Shown one piece after another: positions 9,379-33,439 of a stretch of 64,000 bases of DNA (the first letter of the stretch is position 1; every line of letters begins with the position of its first letter). A program made the translations under genes and the position numbers. Origin of the DNA: Massospora cicadina (lineage: Eukaryota; Entomophthoromycota; Entomophthoromycetes; Entomophthorales; Entomophthoraceae); the NCBI GenBank assembly GCA_022478985.1, contig JAKSZP010009242.1, positions 124,001 to 188,000 of the forward strand, in the 5' to 3' direction. The notes below the pieces were generated by a model. The model searched no databases and was not told where the DNA came from. It saw nothing but the letters and a program-made list of their open reading frames with translations.

Positions 9379-10466
9379 TTTAAACTTTTTTCCTTGTTTA
9401 CTGCATAGTTGGAGGTGTGCATCAAATAACTTGTTGATTAATATAATAAATGACCATCTAGTACTAAAAAAAATAAATTAATAAATGGATGGGTTGATAA
9501 TACTTTAAAGACTATTATCCTAGCTGAGCTTTTTTACAACCAGTGTTGTCAGGTGCTAAAGCTCTTACTTCTGATACTTGAAAGAACTTGTGGTTATTAA
9601 CAAAACCTTTTACATTTACACTTCCACTTGAGTACTTGAGAACCACTTGGACAAGGGAAACTAATCCTTTTTAATCCCAAGAGTTGGCAAATACAACCAG
9701 ATAATGAAAAAACTTTCTCTTATACTCTAATCACAAAAAAGTTTGTACAATGTGTATAGCTATCTAAATGTATTCCAAAGAGAACTTTAATATACTTATT
9801 TAGTAAGAAAACTAAGGGATATATATAGTAAATTCAGCAAAAACTCTTTTGTTGGCGCCTTATTAGGAAAAGCATCCATCACTTATGAATTTATTTCTTA
9901 AGAGTCATCTTAAATGATGATTACTTTATCTTTCTGGTTGGAATCCACCGCTGCCTAGGTAATGACCCTCCTGGGTTATGTATTTAAAGAGCGTATACCA
10001 ACGCTTTAACTTAATCCAGAGAATTATCTTTATTGCGCTAACAACCTGCTTAGGTAATGGGACCCTTTAACATTGGCTGCATGTCACCTTGCTTTTAGCT
10101 ATTTTTTAAGTTGCTGGTAACAAAAGCATTGCCAACGATAAGCAGCTGCCAACAAACCCTTATTGACTGATGGCAAACCTTAATTAATTTGCACAAACTA
10201 TTTAATTTTTGATAAATAAACTAATAATTGAATCATTTGTAAACATTGTCAGAAGTCCTCTCTGACAGAACATCATTAATCCTTTAGAGTTGATCTAGAA
10301 AATTAGTTGACATTTTATAAGGAGACAAATCAACAATAGTTTTTTATATTAATGATAACACCACACTTGCTATGGGTTATTAAAGTATAACCCGCCCTCA
10401 GAGGATAAAGCAGATGATACTATATTCTATAAAACTGGATGATGTGGGCATTCTAAAATCCCAACA
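9379..10466 (-). repeat. 3' LTR of G3
   Basis: Homologous to 16322-16412 joined to 28303-30123. Shared anchors are GAGGTGTGCATCAAA, AGACTATTATCCTAG, GAACCACTTGGACAAGGGAA, TAGCTATCTAAATGTA, ATTCCACCGCTG and AAAATCCCAACA. It carries micro-insertion m1 and lacks a segment of about 0.86 kb present in the other LTR. The terminal TG on the left has decayed to TT. Confidence 0.8.
9437..9486 (+). mobile_element. Micro-retroposon m1 (GACCATCTAGTACT plus A8)
   Basis: Core GACCATCTAGTACT at 9452-9465 is followed by eight A. Flanks 9437-9451 and 9472-9486 agree at about 12 of 15 positions and look like a decayed duplication. The matching site in the other G3 LTR (about 16355-16385) has neither the core nor the A run, so this is an insertion that happened after G3 landed. 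Confidence 0.65.
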
Positions 10467-16321: not shown

Positions 16322-16412
16322 TGTAACTTTTGTTTGTTTACTACTCAGTTTTGAGGTGTGCATCAAACAACTTTAATATAAGTATAATTAATAAGTGGGT
16401 TAATGATAGTAT
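16322..16412 (-). repeat. 5' LTR of G3, part 1 (left of G4)
   Basis: TGTAACTTTTGTTTGTTTA matches the start of the other LTR at 9379. The sequence runs to the G4 insertion, where AGTAT at 16408-16412 is the left copy of the G4 duplication. It is the empty allele for micro-insertion m1. Confidence 0.8.
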
Positions 16413-16824
16413 TGTCAGCGCTACAGTTCTCTAGACTTTCTCCAAGGTCCAAAGGTGGCTTAAGCTGCTAATTTGCAGAAAAAGGTCGAGAAAGAAGCAG
16501 AAAGCTGGGTAAGTTATTTGATATTTTATTAGGCTTAGAGGGATTTGATATTAATAGGGTGTGTTAGGACTTGATGCCTTTGGGATCTTTGGGGCCTCAT
16601 CCATTCAGGATCTTTACTGATCTTCCGGAATGGCCTCCTTATGGGCATCCTCAATGGATGGTGTTGCTCACCTGACCAAATGGGTGGAAACGCCACCACG
16701 TGTCTCAGGAATAGGGGAGGAGGATCCTGAAATTGATTTAGCTCGGTTAGGTTCAACAACTGATTTGGCACAGCCTAGTTTAGATGGGGGGAATTTGATT
16801 TGATCATTATTTCAAATTCTGACA
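16413..16824 (-). repeat. 3' LTR of G4
   Basis: 412 bp, TGTCAG...CTGACA, near-copy of 27886-28297. The inner side (16825-16840) is a polypurine tract in the coding sense (GATCTTGAGGGGGG), the expected start site of plus-strand DNA synthesis. Confidence 0.93.
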
Positions 16825-16844
16825 ACGCCCCCCTCAAGATCCTA

Positions 16845-17820
16845 TCAGAGGGGGGAATACGGCTGCCGGAACTGACCATACACCCGATTTACCACAGTCC
16901 CTTGGTTAATGTTGGCAATGGAGTACTTGGACTTCACCCTATGAATGACTTTATAGGGGCCCAACCAAAGTACATCTAGCTTGTTCTGTAGGCCTCCAAG
17001 TTGATGGTGATAAAAGAGAATGAGGTCCCCTAATTGAAAATCTGGTAAGGATGGTCATCCAATATTAGACTAAGATGTCTCTCTTCCAGTGGTGGTGATA
17101 ATGCCTTGAGTGGCTTGGGCTTGAAGCTGGATAATTTTCATTGGCTAGAGCCCTCATAGTTAATTTGGTGTTCTCAGGGGTGGAGGTCTCAAGCATTGGC
17201 TGGATGCTACTTGGCAAGCCGAGGTTCCTGACCATTTAGGGCTTCAAATGAGGACATCTTGATAGCTAGGTGATAGCTTACTCAGCAGGCAAGCAAGGCG
17301 CTGGGTAGATAATGGTTCCCAACGAGCAGGGTCCAAGGCAGCTAATTTCTAAGAATGGAGATAAGAGTTGCATTAGCCCATTAGACCGCCCCATTAGTGG
17401 AGGGGTAGTAAGGTGCAGCAAAACTCTGGGTAGTGCCGAATAGCGAGGTAAGTTCTTGCACTACCTGTGAGGTGAAGTTTAATCCATTGTCCAAAAGTAA
17501 GGTTTGAGGGCACCCATGCTGGGTGAAAATGGATAAAACGAGGAAAAGGGTGGTGGCCTTGGCAGTAGCAGCTGGGACTGTAATTGCTTCAATCCATTTG
17601 GTTAGATGGTCCACGGCTAGGATAATATATTCATGGCCATGCAACCAAGTGGGAAGAGGGCACACCACATCAATGCTTACCACATTGAAGGGACCAGTTG
17701 GGGCAACCACTGAATGTTGAAATCAGAGGTTAGCTTGGTCTTATGATCGTCAAGCCATGCATGCTTCCAGGACCTCCTGTATAGTCTCTATCATGCGGTC
17801 CCAGTAGCATTGTAAATCAA
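16845..17820 (-). pseudogene. G4 integrase (core and C-terminus), 5' part cut off by L1
   Basis: The minus frame 17381-17710 is open for 109 residues and holds GPFNVVSIDVVCP (first catalytic Asp), ILAVDHLTKWIEAI, QHGCPQTLLLDNGLNF (second catalytic Asp in the DNG) and YYPSTNGAV. It stops just before the usual catalytic Glu. Upstream, 17720-17815 gives YWDRMIETIQEVLEAC, the end of the zinc domain. Downstream, 16860-16990 reads LDVLWLGPYKVIHRVKSKYS and ends FRQPYSPL-stop just before the polypurine tract. Of the IN relics in the window this is the best preserved. Confidence 0.85.
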
Positions 17821-17830
17821 CCACTCGTGA
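17821..17830. repeat. TSD of L1, left copy
   Basis: CCACTCGTGA, repeated as CCACTCATGA at 23159-23168. One G/A difference in ten. Confidence 0.75.
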
Positions 17831-17849
17831 GTCTTTTTAATTTTAATTT

Positions 17850-20800
17850 ATTATGAGGAAGGCCGACCATGTGACGGACACTCCTGAATTTGACCCAAAA
17901 GAGACAAAACTTAGTAACAGGGAAGGCACCCACAGAGAAGTGATGGTATCTCTTGTTGCCAGCGGGAGCGCCACTTATGGGGAGGGGGAGGGAACGTGTG
18001 AAGGGGCCATAGCCACAAATGAACACGTGTGGAGGAAAGAGTTTGATTTGATGAACCAAACAGGGAACCAGGAGGAGACCAGCTGTCGGCGACGCGGTGG
18101 GAGGTATCCAAAAATCCACGCCTGAAAGTGGTCCACCAAATGAGACCAGAATCTGTGGACAGCTTCTGGGAAGGTGGGGATGGAGCCTGCGATGGCATCC
18201 AAGACAATCGTGTGGATAGTCCACATGGCGATTGCAACCACCAGAGCACAGAGGGAGGGTGGAAGGGGGGAGGCCATTACTAAAGCAAACATATCTCTTG
18301 ACAGACTGAAGGGATGTTTTTGATCCTGGACCAGCAGACGTTGAACTTCGCGCCATTCACTTTAAAGGTAGGACACTTCTCCAGGCGGTGGAACAGCGTT
18401 CCATACTGGCCACACACGATGCAGGATGAGTGTAAAACGTTAGAGCGCTCAGCCATATGGTACACCCACCTCAGGCAGCGCCACACATGGGAACGGATTT
18501 GAGGCTGCAACAGAGGATGTTGTGCGTATTTCCAGATAGTTTTTTGGGTCTCAATGGAGTAAGGGATGTCCATCATGTCCAGGTATTCCACTCTGGATAG
18601 GACATGGGGCCGTGTGGGGATCACGCCATCTTGGATGGGTAGCCCCTGTACCTCTTGTGTAAACTGAGGAGAGGGGCGGCCTCTTCGGGTTGTATGTCCA
18701 CTAATACAAATTCTCCACTCTGCGCTTCGCATGGAGAGTAGGATTCATTTGTAGTGGGTTTTAGTCCCGTGGGGACCTGTGGCCGATGTGTGTGATGCGA
18801 GGTATTTCATCAGGGAGTGGTGGTTCGATGGATTGTTGAGGCCCAAGGTGCGGGAGAAGTTGGAGCGGGCTGCGCGGGACCATTGTTGGGAGGGGAGCAT
18901 AGGGGCAGTGATGGCCGCAATCCAGGTGCCCAGGATCTTGGCAGCATGGGCTTTGAAGTCAAGCAGGCCCATGCCACCATGATGATGAGGGCCAAACATG
19001 ACCTCTAGCCATACTGGTGGTGGGTGGCCTGACCAAAGCAATCCTTTCAGCAGGGCATACAATGATTTGAGTAAGCTTGGGGAGAAGGGGATGGTTTGGG
19101 CTCCAAACCAGTTTTAGGAGAGGAGCATAGAGTTGGCTAAAACAACCCTGCCAGTAAGGGAAGTATGGTGGGCTTTGAGGGAGGCGATGCGCTTCATCAT
19201 GTTGTCTAGAATATGACTCTCCATTACTGCTGATGTGTACCCGCCTGCCTCCACCCACACGCCCAGATGGCGGACCAGCCCTATGGCAGGGCGTGGCATG
19301 AAGGGGAGCACCAGTGGGGCGGTGTGGGGTGAGCTGGGAGGGCGAGCATGTGTGCGAGCAGATGGGCCGAGCTGGGCACTGGTTAATGGGGCCCAGTAAT
19401 TTTGATACTGACCAAGGAGGATGATTTCGGTTTTGGAAGCGTTCAGTGCAGCATTGCTTACCTGGGAATACTCCTGGATGTGAGCTTCAAGTGCGCGTGC
19501 ATCTTTATTATTAGACACCCCAACCACACAGCCATCTGCAAATGCCATCATCTTGACTGGGGCTTGGCCTGGCACATGGACCCTAGTGAGTTGGGCATTC
19601 ACGTTTCGAAGTAGTGGGTCAAGGCTGAAGTCATATAAAAACGGGCTAAGGGGTCCCCTTGTCGCAAGCCCTTTTGAGGGCGGACTACTTCCATTAGGAA
19701 GCTAGGGCCACGTACTGCCATTATTGCAGATTCCATGATCAGCATCACCCAGTTGCTGAAGCGAGGGGGTAAGCGGAATTGATGGAGGCAGGCCCTGAGG
19801 TATTCCCTGTTTACTCTATCATAGGCCTTCTGTTGGTCTAAGAATACAAGTGCCCCAGAGGCTGATGACTGGCATGCATTAGCCACAGAGTGCACGTTGT
19901 CCCAAATCGACCTTCTGGGTATGAAACCGAATTGTTTTGGGGAGATGATGGCAGATGCTACAATCCCTAAACGGTTGGCCATGATTTTTGTTAAAATTTT
20001 TGTATCCATGTTAGTTAAAAAAATGGGGCGCCAGTTGGCTAAGTCTAACTTGTCCCCTCTCTTGAAGAGTGTGATGGTGAAGGCCTCTTGTCCTCCTAGT
20101 AGGAGGCGCGTTTCCAGAAGGCTCTGGTTAAGTGAGGCAAGCAGTAGTGGGGATATATATTTGAAGTACTTTTTAGAATTCATATGGAATGCCATCTGGG
20201 CCTGGGCATTTACAGTTTGGTGCACCGCGGATGGCTGTCCATAATTTGTTTGGAGTAATCAAATTCATTATTTACGGGTATCAGGAAATGGTGCGGATAT
20301 GGGTTTGGTCGAGAATTCCAATACTCCAGCTGGCTGAATTGGATCAGATTGGTATAACTCGGAGTAATACTTTAATGTTTCAATTGCTACTTCAGCTGGC
20401 ATATCTGTGATGGAATCATCTGATCTTCACACCTGTGTGCAGGCCACACTCTGGCGTGGTTCAAAATTTTTTCTAAAAAAATATGCGGTGCATTTGTTGC
20501 CCTCTGTAATACATTTGGCCCAGTATTGAACATAAACCTGATGTTTGTGTTGCCTTTTGAGCGCGTTAAGGTGGGCGGCTGCCCCCCTTGGGTTGGGACC
20601 ATCTAGTACTAAAAAAAAAGGTGGGCGGCTGCCTCTGCCCACTTCCGGCCCCATGCAGGGCTGTATCCTGTGGCTGGGATGTTGGACTCCAGGTGTGCCA
20701 ACTCTGCCAGAGTGCATGAGATGATGGCTGATGTGGCTCATGAGCGTTGTGAGGAGAGGTGGTGAGAGTGGCGGATAGTATCCTCTTTGAAGGCTGCCCA

Positions 20801-21645
20801 TGTGGAGATGGGGTCCGCGCAAAACAGTATAACAAACTCTTTTGCCAAAGTTGCTGATTCCACCCAAGTGTAAAATCCTGACGACGCAAGTTCAGGAGGG
20901 CGGAGTTTACACTAATGTGGGGCCTTAGCCACTGTGACAGGTAGGTGGTAGGTTATTGAGACCAGACGGTGGTCAGAGAATTCAATTTTTGTTGTTTTGA
21001 AATGGGAAATGTGGGGTTGGAATTTCGCCGGCGTAAGGATAAGGTCTATGCGGGTCATGGACCTTAATTGGCTGTTGTGGATGTGGGGTCACGTCATGTT
21101 TTTGAGCAGTGGGGCTCACTGCAGCAGCGCATCCATTAACCCAAGGGTGATCTTTAGAACGCAAAGTTCTACGTGACCCTGGGGGGCGTGGGAGGAGGAA
21201 GGCCAACGGTCCATTGGTGTGTTTAGCCAACAGTTCATATTGCTGACTATGAAAGGGTCTGGGGGAAAATGGGAGGGATTTGACCAACAAGAAAAATTCC
21301 TGACATTCCCATGCAGAGGTTGGGGCGTAGATGTTAACAATAGCATGTGCCACGTCAGCTCACAAGAAGTGACAACAAGGACTCAGCCATTGAGGAAGGA
21401 TTCTAACAATAAAAATTTGAAAAATTGTTTTTCCAAACTAGCACCCCACAGTACTCTGACCAAAAGGATAGGGATGGGAGGAGCATGGTTTTCCAAGCAT
21501 CCTCAGAACCTCATGGACAGTGGGACTCCTGGATGGCCAGGATATCCACGGGTAAACTTTTTTGTAAAAAACTCAGTTTCCTAGCCTGGGACGGCGAAGC
21601 CTTGAGTCTGGCGATATTCAACGTCCCTAAAGTGAAGGTTTCCCC
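17850..21645 (-). pseudogene. L1 ORF2 (endonuclease-reverse transcriptase)
   Basis: AP-endonuclease start near 21500-21640: GTLNIARLKAS and VDILAIQESH, which hold the catalytic Asn and Glu; VNIYAP follows near 21340. RT spans about 19300-20225 and is open for 208 residues, with KRGDKLDLANWRPI, FGFIPRRSIWDNVHSVANA, FLDQQKAYDRV (first catalytic Asp intact) and GLRQGDPLA. The second catalytic box is AFADG instead of FADD, near 19540. The C-terminus has a zinc finger, CIVCGQYGTLFHRLEKC (near 18370-18430), and a conserved block MWTIHTIVLDA. Stops, frameshifts and m2 break it. Clade not determined. Confidence 0.88.
20568..20633 (+). mobile_element. Micro-retroposon m2 (27-nt body plus A7) in L1
   Basis: A perfect 16-bp duplication AAGGTGGGCGGCTGCC (20568-20583 and 20618-20633) flanks a 34-nt insert: CCCCTTGGGTTGG, then the core GACCATCTAGTACT, then seven A. 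Duplication of the target plus a 3' A-tail is the signature of target-primed reverse transcription. It is the longest of the three copies and lies on the strand opposite to L1. It interrupts L1 ORF2 between the endonuclease and RT. Confidence 0.85.
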
Positions 21646-21653
21646 ATCACACC

Positions 21654-23030
21654 TTAGGTGCGAGGGGGTGGACACCCGGGCCCACTAGCCTCCTCTAGAT
21701 CCCCATGGGCCTTCACAGCAGTGCGGATGTTTGCAGCAACACTATCAGTAGTTTTGTTGATTTTAGCAGAAAGGTTCGCGTTGGCTTTTGCCTTCACTTT
21801 TTGTTTCCCCAACGTCGAACAAATTTTTTGTGGTGCAGATGAGTTCAGTGCACCATCAAGTGGGTCAAGGAAAATTTTCAGGTAGGTTGGAAACCAAGTT
21901 GGTTTCAACTGGAGCTTGGTTGCAAAGATCGGGTGAAATTGAGTCACTCATTGGATCCTTAGATTGGGTGTCCCAATTGCATGGGCTTCATAATCTGATT
22001 GATTGATGGATTCCAAAGTTGCTTCCGCTGCAAAGGTTTCTATGTCCTCCTGGCGTTGGGAGTGTGGGATAGCGGTGGTGACTTTGGCCGCTTCCTTGGC
22101 CGCAGCCCTGCGGGCCTGCTTGGCCTTCTTCCACTCTTGTGGGGAAATAAGTTTTACCAGTAGGTAGCAGCCTTGTGCTCCCCATGGGAAAGCCTCTTTG
22201 GTGCTTGCGGTTGGTTCATAGTGCGCCTCTCCACTGACCATGGCCGCCGAGGGGTGCTCTTGGAATGTGATGCCCTCCTTGGTGGGGCTTATGTGCCTTA
22301 TGGCCAAATGCGTCACAGTGGGTGCAGATGGGGGGCGCGCTGTCCATGTTTACCTGGAAAGAGTGGGTGGTATGCCCTTCAGTAATGATACATGTGGAGT
22401 GCAGGATCTGGGTTAGGTCCTTTGCGATCTCCTCAGTTGGGGTCAGAACTGCAATGGCTTTGCCAGTGCACAGGTGTGGCATCAGCGTAAAGCATTGCAT
22501 CTCAAAAGATTGTATTTCGCCGTAAACAGTGAGACCATATTTCAGGTGTTGCTCCAAAATGGTACATTTTACTGTAGTAGGCAAAAAGTCAAACGTGAGG
22601 AAAATTTGGTTGGATATTGTCCATCTGGTGCATTTGGTTTCGATGACTCATTGCCCTTCAGGGAGGTCGATCACTACACACACCGCAGCAGCTTCGTCTG
22701 CTGCCTCCTTGTTTTCAAAACCGAGGTCCAGCCAACCATGTGACATGGAGTGAGGTGCGACATACACCACAGTTAGGAAAAAAGTGTGCACATCCCCACA
22801 AAATTTTTCCCATAGAGCTGTTTGTTGTTTGTCCAGAAACACACAGACTCCATATTCCACTGACGAGAGTGGTTGGGAGTGCGGCGTGTTGATGTACTGG
22901 TTGCATCACGCTTGCCAAGCGAGGATTTCTGGGGAAATAGTGACCGCCAGTTTTTTTAATTTTTTTTTTCCATTTTGCCAGTTTCTCCGGGGCGTTTTCA
23001 AATGTTTGAGGCAGCGAGCCTACCACCTGC
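21654..23030 (-). pseudogene. L1 ORF1 (nucleic-acid-binding protein)
   Basis: Minus frames with a Lys-rich N-terminus (EKLAKWKKKIKKTGG), then LDLGFENKEAADEAA and VIDLPEGQ. These line up with MSFETEEDADAM and KIALPKGK in L3. The next block, LEQHLKYGLTVYGEIQSFEM, is of the RRM-like kind found in many LINE ORF1 proteins. A zinc knuckle follows: CTHCDAFGHKAHK, with the last Cys replaced by Lys (L3 keeps CNHCTTLGHKEHAC). The C-terminal part is basic and Ala-rich (KKAKQARRAAAKEAAK). Several frameshifts. ORF1 proteins bind LINE RNA in the particle. Confidence 0.75.
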
Positions 23031-23158
23031 TCCTCTTACCTTACTTGCCCAACTGCTCCCTGACATGGGCGCAGACTAATCTCCTCTGTGAGATTATCAA
23101 ACTAGAATCAGACTTGAATTGAATAAGTTGCAAAAGTGATTGCAACGAGAGAAAAAGT

Positions 23159-24890
23159 CCACTCATGAATTATTTTGATGGCCCCATGTCCCATGGTGGA
23201 ATGACCTTCTAGTATAACATCAGTTCTGGAGGAGGGGCGGATATAAGTGAGCCACTTCTTTTTGACCTTCTTGTAAAGCAGCCCATCCTTAATTTTTGCA
23301 TCAAAAGTCATCCTTTGTAGTTCAGCTTGGACCTCCAGGGTTTCCAACTTCCACTGGTCAGGTCGGCTTAATAGTTCATATAGCTGGTCCTCATTGGGGG
23401 TCAATGCTGCTAACACTGGTTTAGTGGAGAGGCCATCAGCATTCTGGTGAATAGTGCCTGTGTGGTGGCCGATGGTGAAATCATAGCTTTGCAGTTGTAG
23501 AGCCCACCTGGCTAGATGACCATTGGTATCCTTTATTTGTTGAAGCCACTGTAGCGAGGAGTGGTCTGTAATAATAATAAAGTCGTTTCCATAGAGGTAA
23601 GACTGAAGGTGTTTGATGGACAGTAGGACAGCTAGACATTCCCTCTTGGTGACGCTGTAGTTCCACTCAGCTTTATTTAGCGTCTTACTAAAGTAGGCCA
23701 CAGGGTGGTCAACCTGGTTTTCATCATGTTGGGCCAGGATAGCCCTGATGGCGACATTGCTCGCATCCATGAATAATAAGAAGGGTTGGTTGAAGCGAGG
23801 GTGAACTAGAATGGGTTTGGTACAGAGAGCGATTCTCAAGGCATTAAAAGTCTGTTTTTGTTCAGGCTGCCACTTGAATGGCACATTTTTCTGTAGGAGA
23901 TAAAACAGCGGTTCTGTAAGGTTGGCAAACGGGGAATAAACTACTGGTAATAGCCCACCATGCTGAGGAATATCTGGATATCCCTCAAGCTCTGGGGGCG
24001 TGACATCTTCTATATGGCAGCGATTTTGTCTGGTATAGGTCGGATGCCATCCTTAGAGACCTTGTGCCCCAGGAATTCTAATTTGGACTGAAAGAAGGAG
24101 CACTTTGAGGGCTTTAGCTTTAAGGACGCCCTTTGTAGCTGATTTAATACTTCCCATAGATGCTTGAGGTGCTACTAAAGGTTTGAGAGAAAACAGTAAT
24201 GTCATCTATATAAATAAGGACGCAGGAAAGCTTCAAGTCCCCAAGGATCCCATCCATGGCACGGTGGAAAGTGGCTGGGGCGTTACAAAGGCCTTGGGGC
24301 ATCCTGGTGGGCTCTAATAGTCCCTCATTGGCTATGAGAGCACACTTAGCCTGGTCTTCAGGGGCGAGCTCAACCTGCCAATATCCGCTGGAAAGGTCCA
24401 TGGCGGAAAAGTATTGGGATCCGGCGAGCAGTTGGAGGGAATTGTCAATTTGAGGTAAAGGATAACTGTCCTTTTTAGTGATGGAGTTAAGTCATCGATA
24501 GTCCTTCATCACCCAATGGATGCCTTCCTTCTTCTGAACAAGCAGAAGAGAAGAGGCCCAAGGGCTGGACCATCTAGTACTAAAAAAAGAGGCCCAAGGG
24601 CTGCATGAGGGCACCAGGAGTCTGGCGTCAAGTATTTGTTTTAGCTCAACGATCACCTGGGCCTCCTCGACCTTGCTTTTGGTAAGGTTGGGACCAAAAG
24701 GGAGGATCATTCCCAGTTTCTACATGATGGAGGACCCCATTCATTATTTCAAAGTTATAGGTCAAGGTTGAGAATAGGTCCAAATATTCTTCCAACAATG
24801 CTAGGACCTTTTGCTGTTGGTCATCCGAGAGGTCTTTACTGATATTAGTATCAACCAGACTAACCAAGGGTGGAGCTTCCAAGCCAAAGT
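23159..24890 (-). pseudogene. G4 reverse transcriptase and RNase H
   Basis: RT: 24646-24882 is the N-terminal part. 24492-24560 reads LLLVQKKEGIHWVMKDYR. 24144-24401 is open and has MDLSSGYWQVELAPEDQ (first Asp), MPQGLCNAPATFHRAMD and VLIYIDDITVFSQTF with YIDD intact. RH: 23159-23884 holds LLFMDASNVAIRAILAQ, VDHPVAYFSKTLN, KRECLAVLLSIKHLQSYL, TDHSSLQWL and GHLARWALQLQSYDF. Downstream it enters the IN zinc domain (GHGAIKIIHEW), where L1 begins; the last residues of the open frame (23108-23158) are L1 sequence. Short frameshifts and micro-insertion m3 break RT. Confidence 0.92.
24552..24603 (+). mobile_element. Micro-retroposon m3 (GACCATCTAGTACT plus A6) in G4 RT
   Basis: A perfect 16-bp duplication AGAGGCCCAAGGGCTG (24552-24567 and 24588-24603) flanks a 20-nt insert, GACCATCTAGTACT plus six A. 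The insert is 14 nt of body with a tail, identical in the body to m1 and m2. It disrupts the fingers region of G4 RT. Both duplication copies are identical, so the event is recent. Confidence 0.88.
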
Positions 24891-24899
24891 CTCTTTATT

Positions 24900-25860
24900 C
24901 CCCAAAGTTTTGGACGTCAGCAATAGCTTCCACTGGTAGTAATTGGACATAGGCGGTGGGGCTGTTTAGACCTACTATTTTGGGTTTATCAGTAAGGTTG
25001 GCAAACAGCACTGATATAGATCTAGCGAAGACTTGAGCTAGAATCCCCGGACAGGTTATAACCTCCTTTGGGGCGGGTTGTCTAGGCCTCAGACTTCTAG
25101 AAGGTACCCCAAGGGGATGTTGACATGGACCCAGACATCAGCAATGACCTGGGATTTTGGGGTATGGTAGTTGCCTTAGGCAATTAACTTGGCATGCCTT
25201 CTTGCCCATTAACAGCAGGAGGGGGAAGCCGGACTTGGGAACCCTTAATATGATATTCGAGCTGATCAATTTGGCTTTCACTCTCTAGAAGATAAGCCTG
25301 GGCTTTAACCTCAGTTTTGGAGTCATGGGGGTCTCAAAGATAAGTGGATACAATGACCAAGTAAGGATAGAAAGCCGCCATCATAATGGAGCACTGCCGA
25401 ATAGTCTATAAGAAAATGAGTCCTGAGGAGTCAGTTATAGCTAGGGTTGTCCAGAGTGACAGCGGGCATATCTTAAGTTAACTTCCCAAATTTTATTGGT
25501 AGAGAGGAATAAGCCCCTATGGATAGGGTGCACTAGGGGCCAGCAGTGTTATACTCCATATAGTGCAGCATATCAGGAGCGATCTTGATGCGTTTCATCA
25601 ACTTGTAGGATATGACTTTATGGGAACGCCACTGTCAACTATGGCATGGACTAGTATCTTATGAACTCAAACTGCGACCCAGGTGACCAGGCTTATGAAC
25701 TGGGGCGGCAGAGTGAGTAACATGGGAGTTTCATCAAAAGAAGAGTAGGCAGTATCAACTTCTTTATTATCATTAGATACTGAAACTTCTTCTCCAGATG
25801 CTGTAGCTCCTAATTCATTTATGGTTGCAGAGGATTCTCAAGGCTAGTTGGGGTTGTCAG
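24900..25860 (-). pseudogene. G4 protease region
   Basis: At about 25620-25660 the minus strand reads VHAIVDSGVPIK, the retropepsin active site with D-S-G intact (25628-25636). The rest of the section up to RT is readable only in short pieces, with frequent stops (for example EVKAQAYLLESESQIDQLEY). PR would cleave the Gag-Pol polyprotein. Confidence 0.7.
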
Positions 25861-25861
25861 C

Positions 25862-27830
25862 ACGAAGTGCCTCATCCTTCATGCTGACTGCCCTTTTCCC
25901 GCCTCTTTGGCAAGTCGTTTCCAGAAGTTCTTGGCGCTGTGTCTGGATCTGTTACAGTAAGTACATCTGGATTGAGGGTTCTTCTGGTTTTTGACAACAT
26001 GGATTCTAGGACGGTTAGAGGGGCCAGTGGAGGTAGCATTAAAGTGTATAGTCGACATAGGGATCTCATTAAGGGCCTTCTTAATGTCTCAGATGCAGGT
26101 AAACCCATTCTTCCTGGACAATCATATGCATCTGGACCTCAGGGTAGGATTCCAACGCAGAAATGACAATAATAGTGTCGTCCAGGGTGATACAATTCAT
26201 GGTGACCAAGGGGTGAGCTTGAGCATAAAAATGGCAGGCGAACTCTGTAAGCTTTCTCCTTTGTTTAATTGGATACCCATGAAGGCCTGTTTTTGGTTGG
26301 CTAAGGTTTGGTTGCTACTGAACTCTTAGATTAAAGCCATGCGGACCTGATCCCAAGTTGTGCACTCCTTCAAATGAGGGTTCATGATCTCCCAGGCCAT
26401 GCTATCCAGGCAGGAGTGGATATTTCACCCTTTGCCGATCAGTGGCCTCCTCCATGGAGCTTTTATAAACGTACAGGAATGATGCAATTCTCTCTTGGCT
26501 GGGAATGAACCTTTCTTTAAAACTAGGTTTAAAGTTTATTTACCAGAGGAACGGAGAGGGTACTAAAACCAGGGATAGGTGTTGGTTTCAAAATTTCAGT
26601 TTCCACATAGTCATGGGGGCCCTGTTGGTCTAGCTGGCATCATAGGCTTCAAGTTCTTCCTGGACATTGTCCCAATTTTGATTGAAGGAGTAAATGTAAA
26701 CCTTGAACTGCGACCTGCTTTTTTAAAGATTGTATGTTGGCCTGCTGGCGATGAGACTGGTCCTTGAGGGTGGTCAGGCAGGTCTTGAACCCTCGATAAG
26801 TTTGCTCCAGCCAAGAGATGTGGGCATTGGTGAGCTCAGCAATAATACTTTAGTTGCCCATTTTTTCTGACAGGGCATTTAGGGAGACTCTAGGGTCAAG
26901 TGGGACTCCATCCGTTCAGAGTCTACATCCCTCAGCTACAAACTGAATTTGTTCATGTAAAACAGCCAAGGCTGTCATCACATCCTTCTGCCAGGGGTTC
27001 TCAGGGCCAGTGGTGGGGGCTGAGGGACCTGGGGGCCCGGGGGGTCCACAGGGACCTTCTGGCCCTTTAGGCCCCTCACGCCACAAGGGGCCTTCAGGCC
27101 TGAGGCCCTTCAGGACCTTCGCCCCTAGATGTTAGTTGTGGGAGGCCAGCTCTAGATAGTGTTGTTGTAGGGTCCCTACCAGATCCTTGACTTAGAGGTG
27201 GCGTCAATTCCAAGTTGTTTTGAGGTGTTGGACGTTCTGATGCAGTTCATCCTCAAGAAATCCGGAGATCCCGTGATCTAACACCATTACCTGGTCTTGA
27301 ACTTCATTAACCAGCTGTCAATTATCAATTATGGACTTGCAGTTGTCATGAATGAAGTAGGAGGCTGCATTATAGAAATTGACGAGATGTATGTAGGGCT
27401 TGGGGGAGCCCCAGTTAGCGTGTGACTTCTTGATGGTGCAACCCAAACAGTTGGAGTAAGTGATGGATGGCGGGGTGAATGAAATGGCGGAGGTAACACT
27501 GGGGCCCAATGTGAGTTCTGCTGGCGGCAGCTGGGCTGACTCATAAAGGTCCCGCATGGTAGAGGGAATGGCAGAGGCGCGGGAACAACTAGTGCAGGCA
27601 CCCACAGAGTAGATGCCATTTATTAGTTGTGAGATTACCTTGTTAAGGTTTTTGTATTGAAGTTGGTACTGACTTCCATCAATAGAAAGCAGGGTGAACT
27701 GGAATTTGGCATGAACTTCTAATATTTTGGCTTACGCGGCCAGTATTTCATGCTGCAAGGTACTAACCCATTATGCAATGCTTCTCAACTGACCTTCAGT
27801 TTAATCTTATAGGCTTCTAGTATTTTCCAT
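25862..27830 (-). pseudogene. G4 gag (helical region, collagen-like tract, capsid, zinc knuckle)
   Basis: Order from the 5' side (right to left). About 27140-27610 is the N-terminal part, with YNAASYFIHDNCKSIIDN, then NEVQDQVMVLDHG and LEDELHQNVQHLKTTW, which look helical. At 27000-27120 is a Gly-X-Y tract. About 26170-26480 is capsid-like: MEEATDRQRVKYPLLPG, KTGLHGYPIKQRRKLTEFAC and DDTIIVISALES. At 25926-25965 is a zinc knuckle, CTYCNRSRHSAKNF, with the last Cys changed to Phe. Single stops occur throughout. Gag would form the particle; the placement of a collagen-like stalk between helical part and capsid is unusual and is shared with G1. Confidence 0.7.
27000..27120 (-). other. Collagen-like Gly-X-Y coding tract in G4 Gag
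   Basis: In the coding sense the frame reads EGPLWREGPKGPEGPCGPPG followed by PPGPSAPTTGPENP: about eight consecutive Gly-X-Y triplets with one internal slip. It is in frame with the helical region upstream and the DVMTALAVLHEQIQF segment downstream, apart from stops. The complementary strand also shows Gly-Pro runs, as any GGN/CCN-rich tract will; the minus strand is the Gag strand. Confidence 0.75.
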
Positions 27831-27863
27831 TGTGATAGACGTTTCACTTGGGACAGCTCAGAG

Positions 27864-27881
27864 CCCCTGTAGTGAGCACCA
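27864..27881 (-). promoter_or_regulatory. Primer-binding site of G4
   Basis: In the coding sense TGGTGCTCACTACAGGGG lies four bases inside the 5' LTR and begins with the TGG that pairs with a tRNA CCA end. The tRNA 3' end implied is CCCCTGTAGTGAGCACCA. I cannot assign it to an amino acid. Confidence 0.75.
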
Positions 27882-27885
27882 CTAT

Positions 27886-28297
27886 TATCGGCGCTACAGT
27901 TTCTAGACTGGCGCTGAGGTCCAAAGGTGGCTCAAAGCTGCTAATCTGCAGAGAAAGGTTGAGAAGGAAGCGGAAAGCTGGGTAAATTATTTGATATTTT
28001 ATTAGGCTTAGTAGGATTTGATATTTATAGGGTGTGTTGGGACTTGGAGAACTCAGGATTTCGGGGCCTCATCTGTTCAGGATCTTTACTGATCTTCTGT
28101 AATGGCCTCCTCGTGGGCATCGTCAATGGATGGTGTTGCTCACCTGACCAAATGGGTGAAACGCCACCCCACGTGTATCAGGAATAGGGGAGGAGGATCC
28201 TGAAATTGATTTAGCTCGGTTAGGTTCAACAACTGATTTGGCACAGCCTAATTCAGAAGGGGAGAATTTGATTCAATCATTATCTTAAATTCTGACA
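27886..28297 (-). repeat. 5' LTR of G4
   Basis: 412 bp, partner of 16413-16824. Its inner end reads TATCGG where the other copy has TGTCAG; the outer end CTGACA is intact and borders the duplication AGTAT. Confidence 0.93.
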
Positions 28298-28302
28298 AGT
28301 AT

Positions 28303-33095: not shown

Positions 33096-33439
33096 AAGAG
33101 TCAATATTGGATAAATTTTATATAAATTAACATTTATTTGTTGGACGTTTTAATTCTTTGGTGCCCAGACTATACACAATTAAGGCCGTTCATTAAAAAG
33201 AATACTTGTCATACATCAATGCATCCTGGTTTTCTGATCTAGCTGATTCTTCTTGCGTACTATAGTCCAAAAGGCTAAATTTTTTTGTTATTTTAAATCT
33301 GGTTGGTGATCAAGTAAATTTCTCACTAAAACCATCTTTTTTTAGCACTAGTGGTGCCCAACTCAAAAGGGGGAGCTGCCACGCATCTTTATTTGCAAAT
33401 GGGCCAAACAAAGGGAATATTAGAAACAAGAAAAACCTA

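Follow-up and report, generated by a model that had tools for sequence, protein, structure and literature searches.

How can an insertion whose own body is only 14 nt long look like the product of retrotransposition? The question is raised by m3, which lies within the reverse-transcriptase gene of a Ty3 element in a 64-kb stretch of Massospora cicadina DNA, the whole of which we analyzed and refer to as the window. The initial annotation had described m3 as a 14-nt body with an A-run between two identical target copies, and had proposed that such insertions are either extreme 5′ truncations of a longer SINE or LINE or an unusual tiny retroposon. We are confident that m3 and the similarly short insertions found throughout the genome, here called stubs, are extreme 5′-truncated copies of an L1-like LINE that arose via target-primed reverse transcription. 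The mechanism is already known, and what is unusual is the scale and the small size.

m3 and its sister insertions

The structure first described for m3 is real and could be refined. The insertion as a whole covers positions 24551-24603 of the window, and its two perfect duplication copies can be read as 17 bp (16 bp in the earlier cut) and its tail as 5-7 A, because two A are common to both. The parts of m3, of two sister insertions (m2 and m1), and of the LINE and Ty3 elements of interest are listed below.

24551..24567, + strand: m3, 5′ copy of the target duplication AAGAGGCCCAAGGGCTG
24568..24581, + strand: m3, 14-nt body GACCATCTAGTACT, equal to the 3′ end of the source LINE
24582..24588, + strand: m3, A-run of 7 A, the final two common to the duplication
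24587..24603, + strand: m3, 3′ copy of the target duplication AAGAGGCCCAAGGGCTG
20568..20583, + strand: m2, 5′ copy of the target duplication AAGGTGGGCGGCTGCC
20584..20610, + strand: m2, 27-nt body, consisting of CCCCTTGGGTTGG and the 14-mer
20611..20619, + strand: m2, A-run of 9 A
20618..20633, + strand: m2, 3′ copy of the target duplication AAGGTGGGCGGCTGCC, 16 bp
9439..9451, + strand: m1, probable 5′ duplication TAATATAATAAAT, 11/13 identical to the 3′ copy
9452..9473, + strand: m1, 14-nt body and 8 A, absent from the sibling LTR
9474..9486, + strand: m1, probable 3′ duplication TAAATTAATAAAT
16410..28298, − strand: Ty3 element hosting m3, with LTR matches at 16410-16825 and 27883-28298 (88.5% identical) and RVT_1, RT_RNaseH and rve on the − strand
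17820..22905 (limits approximate), − strand: another LINE, nested in the Ty3 element and hosting m2, with RVT_1 at 19602-20258
33337..33393, − strand: 3′ end (AATAAAGATGCGTGGCAGCTCCCCCTTTTGAGTTGGGCACCACTAGTGCT followed by A7) of an older copy of a second, related LINE family

A search of the window found GACCATCTAGTACT exactly at 9452, 20597 and 24568, always on the + strand. The earlier claim that the 14-mer recurs in two further insertions of the window therefore stands as far as the exact sequence goes, but the body of m2 is 27 nt long and the duplication of m1 matches at only 11 of 13 positions. Positions 20583-20610 of m2 are identical to the final 28 nt of the LINE reference copy in L012. 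For both m3 and m2 we identified insert-free paralogues that align over the joined junction (L047, 67.7% identity, and L024, 69.9% identity, respectively), and the sibling LTR of the element hosting m1 (16325-16410) has neither the 14-mer nor the A-run. With its imperfect 13-bp duplication and AT-rich surroundings, m1 is weak evidence when taken alone. When both strands of the window were scanned for A-runs (at least 5 A) followed by a stretch of at least 11 bp that is duplicated exactly within 900 bp, five hits were obtained, namely, m3 (17 bp), m2 (16 bp), a simple-sequence hit of 13 bp and two hits of 11 bp. PMC10515909 places the LINE expansion in M. cicadina later than the Ty3 expansion, and a stub inside a Ty3 element with LTRs 88.5% identical agrees with that order. 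The second-family LINE copy at 33337-33393 (− strand) extends further upstream.

Copy number and source element

Exact patterns were counted in the 1.47-Gb assembly (16,968 contigs), with the reversed pattern as the control. The 8-nt pattern CTAGTACTAAAAA has 39,550 exact copies against 143 reversed, the 14-mer followed by AAA (GACCATCTAGTACTAAA) has 24,723 against 0, and the 20-nt pattern GGTTGGGACCATCTAGTACTAAA has 12,222 against 0. On the strength of these counts and the window scan, we rejected a chance origin. The initial annotation had reasoned that its three cases would be coincidence or tandem-duplication artefacts if the 14-mer followed by A were rare genome-wide, and with 24,723 copies in the genome it is anything but rare. 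Scans of viral contigs gave no exact match to the 14-mer plus 5 A and no confirmed relative of two ORFs of the window.

The 14-mer is the 3′ end of an L1-like LINE, L1-like being used here in the sense of PDB similarity. The longer copies of the family end alike, in ..AATAAACATCGATGAATCCCCCCTTGGGTTGGGACCATCTAGTACT(A)n with variation in the C-run and loop, and continue into LINE sequence. We sampled 96 copies, taking the 3 in the window together with 93 from the first 100 places listed. Thirteen of them match the L012 LINE reference over at least 300 nt, the match of L013 being interrupted by an internal gap. Fragments of ORFs in L042 and L002 gave a match to RVT_1 (E=3.9e-25) and another, under the cut-off of 27.5 bits, to zf-RVT (26.6 bits; E=9.6e-6), and the best PDB match of a piece of L048 was human LINE-1 ORF2p (E=4e-16 to 1.5e-15), so the source element codes for a reverse transcriptase of the non-LTR type. 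Of the two kinds of source that had been proposed for an extreme 5′ truncation, SINE or LINE, the latter is thus the one that the data bear out, as the long copies reach RVT_1 frames and the sub-threshold zf-RVT match.

Like SINEs with LINE-derived 3′ ends, the stubs are short, A-tailed and duplication-flanked and carry a LINE 3′ end, and short insertions outnumber long ones, as they might if the stubs were truncations of an ordinary SINE that has a promoter and 5′ part of its own. The long copies here differ from such SINEs, as all 13 match the LINE reference over at least 300 nt and continue as LINE, with no separate or unrelated 5′ part, and on this ground we rejected a SINE source. Neither Rfam at its gathering threshold nor a tRNA scan gave a hit in the window, and we consider this origin extremely unlikely. 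A supposed resemblance to 5S rRNA was dropped as well, with Rfam giving no match in the window at gathering thresholds.

Target duplications, tails, and junctions

By homology, the LINE body measures 14-30 nt in 59 of the 96 sampled copies, 37-49 nt in 24, and 58 nt or more in 13. The smallest body in this sample is 14 nt because the 14-mer served as the bait. L013, L069, and L083 were counted as long on the basis of homology (match of at least 300 nt); the duplication search had put them at 38-42 nt via a spurious match of 4-6 bases.

A target duplication (score of at least 11, within 80 bp upstream) was found in 76 of the 96 copies, in contrast to 0 of 286 permuted pairs. These 76 comprise 53 short stubs and 23 copies of about 42 nt, which we call class B. 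The other 20 are all 13 long copies, whose 5′ ends were outside the range of the 80-bp search, and 7 short ones; when the search was widened to 900 bp, L006 was the one long copy of the 13 with a duplication. The wider search raised the number of duplicated copies to 77, all with different sequences (77/77), 59 of which are 15-18 bp long. The first base of the duplication is A in 68 and the second in 69 of the 77, and such AA-rich starts fit a putative APE-type endonuclease in the source LINE. The copies are thus flanked by target duplications of variable sequence, whose absence would have made the three original cases coincidence or tandem-duplication artefacts in the eyes of the initial annotation. 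Its reading of a target duplication plus an A-run as the product of LINE target-primed reverse transcription is supported.

The copies also have a common 3′ end, an A tail, and variable 5′ truncation. Since they were selected by their common 3′ end, only the variable 5′ end is an independent test of LINE origin. The A-run consists of 7 A in 44 of the 96 copies and of 8 A in 22; once the A's belonging to the duplication are subtracted, 5 is the commonest number (27/77). Such a tight A-run suggests that cDNA synthesis is initiated at a defined position close to where the tail begins, instead of at any point along a long poly(A).

Among the 53 short stubs, the 5′ junction shows a LINE-target overlap of 0-2 nt in 32 cases and additional bases in 15. 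These extra bases, untemplated or resembling the flank, are of the kind seen in end joining and would also be in keeping with tandem duplication or with filler DNA from double-strand-break repair, unrelated to retrotransposition. Against such an origin, one 3′ sequence with an A tail is present at tens of thousands of places (the same body at 24,723 of them, where filler at unrelated sites would have no common body), the 77 duplications all differ and mostly begin with AA, and none of the 286 permuted pairs scored. As the main cause, tandem duplication or filler is refuted by the duplication test, and we give this explanation hardly any credence.

The smallest stubs

Among the matches listed, contigs C1-C3 show 25 places with CTAGTACTAAAAA but without the full 14-mer (by eye), 3 of which were already in the sample; we examined 20 more. 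A duplication score of at least 10 was reached in 14 of these 20, and in 11 of the 20 it accompanies a body of 8-14 nt. Among the permuted pairs for these places, 2 of 191 scored at least 10 (maximum, 16), and we think that both come from L133 and L134, two of the 11, which have one common duplication and are perhaps a single copied event. At least 4 of the remaining places resemble second-family or related copies with a changed base. Extrapolating from the 20 places, roughly half of the 14,827 extra matches to CTAGTACTAAAAA would be stubs. An 8-nt body is found between 16-bp duplications in L133/L134 and, by eye, in L047, so the insert can have half the length of its own duplication. In the sample, this LINE has put most of its insertions (59/96) into dead stubs, with about 16 bp of duplicated target per stub. 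As inserts of 8-24 nt would normally be missed by repeat annotation, LINE events of this class may go uncounted.

Sites of truncation and the predicted 3′ hairpin

The truncation points are not random and fall into two classes. Of the bodies of the 76 duplicated copies, 50 measure 12-24 nt, only 3 measure 25-35 nt, and 23 measure 36-46 nt. A 3′UTR hairpin, GAUG-AA-UCCC..GGGA-C-CAUC, is predicted to begin 7 nt before the A tail, and for bodies of 8-24 nt the truncation point falls at or within its 3′ arm (CAUC and GGGA) or its loop. In 21 of the 23 class-B copies, the start is no more than 1 nt away from ACATCG, which lies 5 nt upstream of the predicted hairpin and beside AATAAA. Class B and the long copies alike include both loop variants, CTTGGG and CTCAGG. 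Genome-wide, ACATCGATGAATCCC (from ACATCG, about 42 nt) has 6,775 exact copies versus 18 reversed, and CAATAAACATCGATGAATCCC (about 48 nt, reaching 6 nt beyond ACATCG) has 2,071 versus 0; both patterns exclude the 3′ end, so the count series is not strictly nested, and both figures are underestimates, as counts drop by truncation and also by point mutation. Among the 37 class-B and long copies (38 with L067, a chance pick that was left out), exact GGTTGGGACC is absent from 2 and exact ACATCGATGAATCCC from 10. The 69% drop within 6 nt agrees with the sample, in which 24 copies stop and 13 continue.

The second family, represented by CACCACTAGTGCTAAAA, has 4,395 exact copies, of which we judged by eye the first 40 of 100 listed places, a sample in which bodies of less than 13 nt are invisible. 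Four of the 40 (L041, L103, L121, and L127, the duplication of L121 being imperfect, with a score of 8) start at the corresponding (G)ATGCG, directly behind AATAAA. This motif is kept upstream in 27 of the 40, and most copies are long. Stubs are few despite a similar stem (L108 is a possible stub, and L112 has 34 nt), so the flood of short stubs seems to be confined to family 1, with the reservation that family-2 bodies under 13 nt are invisible.

The predicted outer helix is GAUG:CAUC in family 1 and GUGG:CCAC in family 2, with 2 of the 4 pairs changed on both sides, and it is complete in 18 of 23 distinct family-1 sequences and in 20 of 41 family-2 sequences (5 of the 41 are without the anchor). 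These paired changes between the two families favor a real structure, as support and not as proof. The predicted fold is not more stable than that of shuffled sequences in family 1 (z −0.38 and 0.03) or in family 2 (z −0.21), where the best fold differs from the hairpin. We see the arguments for the predicted hairpin as the cause of the early stops as evenly balanced; a stall would fit the stops inside the hairpin better than the stop beyond it.

The result with the shuffled sequences would also agree with a different cause, in which a protein on AAUAAA, or another factor, halts the enzyme at the 42-nt site and the early stops reflect low processivity or host repair instead of RNA structure. 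By eye, class B starts at or directly behind AATAAA in both families. However, the early stops cluster, with 50 of 76 at 12-24 nt before the near-empty interval of 25-35 nt. In addition, the distance of the start from the predicted stem is 5 nt for family 1 and 4-5 nt for family 2, and the offset to AATAAA differs by about 1 nt, a weak point as it was judged by eye. We regard such a roadblock as somewhat unlikely.

The sharp limit of class B bears on the second proposal of the initial annotation. As a description of the stubs at large, a tiny retroposon had to be given up, and it survives only for this sharply bounded class of about 42 nt. Class B could be a minimal retroposon: a discrete small RNA, comprising the hairpin and A tail and produced or cut back from LINE RNA, would be reverse-transcribed all the way to its genuine 5′ end, which would make these copies full length. 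In line with this, 21 of 23 copies agree in their 5′ end to within 1 nt and differ in their duplications, more exact copies reach ACATCG (6,775) than extend 6 nt further (2,071), and 4 of 40 second-family copies have the same start (by eye). The presence of both LINE loop variants in the class speaks against one small source gene, and a precise stop of the enzyme would look the same; we therefore take a minimal retroposon to be unlikely. In a particular form of the idea, which we think rather improbable, the LINE enzyme would shield its own 3′ hairpin, the rest of the RNA would be degraded from the 5′ end, and the 42-nt remnant would be inserted as a full-length template. If this were true, the genome would preserve, thousands of times over and for two LINE families, a fossil footprint at nucleotide resolution that the enzyme had left on its RNA.

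Proposed mechanism and comparison with known systems

Extreme 5′ truncation during target-primed reverse transcription, our preferred reading, starts from what the copies display: a LINE 3′ end as the source, duplications, an A-rich target start, a short A tail, and two truncation classes. The target would be nicked, and a short T-ending primer would anneal to the A tail of the LINE RNA. cDNA synthesis would then begin, and the enzyme would stop once 8-24 nt had been copied, on reaching or entering the 3′ arm and loop of the predicted hairpin (the putative cause), or alternatively after about 42 nt, 5 nt beyond the predicted hairpin. The latter stop may be due to an RNA trimmed to its protein-protected 3′ hairpin or to a roadblock at AAUAAA. 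Finally, the stub would be linked to the opposite strand, and fill-in of the stagger (15-18 bp in most cases) would create the duplication. With a duplication to mark every event, the stubs document naturally the positions at which LINE reverse transcription stops in the first 50 nt inside cells.

The element resembles human LINE-1 in several respects, with ORF2p as the best solved relative of its reverse transcriptase, an A tail, duplications of usually 15-18 bp starting with A, and 5′ truncation. A 34-bp somatic insertion of human L1 is described as very short in PMC7058536, whereas here 59 of 96 copies carry 30 nt or less; the A-run here is also very short and tight, and there are preferred truncation sites. 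Tad1 is a fungal clade of LINEs. For stringent-type LINEs (UnaL2 and ZfL2-1/2), recognition of a 3′ stem-loop has been put forward, and the Tad1 clade is also named in this context (PMC4176376). The predicted hairpin near the 3′ end, with its paired changes between two families, would be a point of likeness to these elements, but the Massospora LINE ends in an A tail. A fungal LINE with unusual products is also known from Magnaporthe, for which PMC2104539 describes LINE chimeras formed by template jumping; in contrast, no second RNA was noticed in the stubs that we viewed, unsystematically. In the literature searched, which took in a minority of subscription papers, the 14-mer, its complement, and an overlapping 15-mer were absent. 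A class of very short or prematurely ended LINE copies was not found in titles and abstract starts either, which is weak evidence of absence given this coverage.

Observations at other loci

A 282-nt insertion at L015:1802-2117 (limits approximate) is flanked by a 17-bp exact duplication, TAAAAATACTTAGTTTA, and has the 3′ end ..CAGCCCACCTCAAATAAAATT. This end resembles that of the LINE at window positions 17845-17882, so the insertion is possibly a SINE using the tail of that LINE. L080 has a 13-nt stub and a class-B copy of about 42 nt at one spot, apparently with one common target duplication, as if the first duplication had been reused. Pairs of stubs on opposite strands and 246 bp apart were seen on two contigs (L029/L030, at G000:C2:407471/407717, and G000:C1:177650/177896), and they may be one duplicated segment. 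Lastly, L031:1700-4400 contains long direct repeats with a spacing of about 470-810 bp, together with AACCA-rich sequence.
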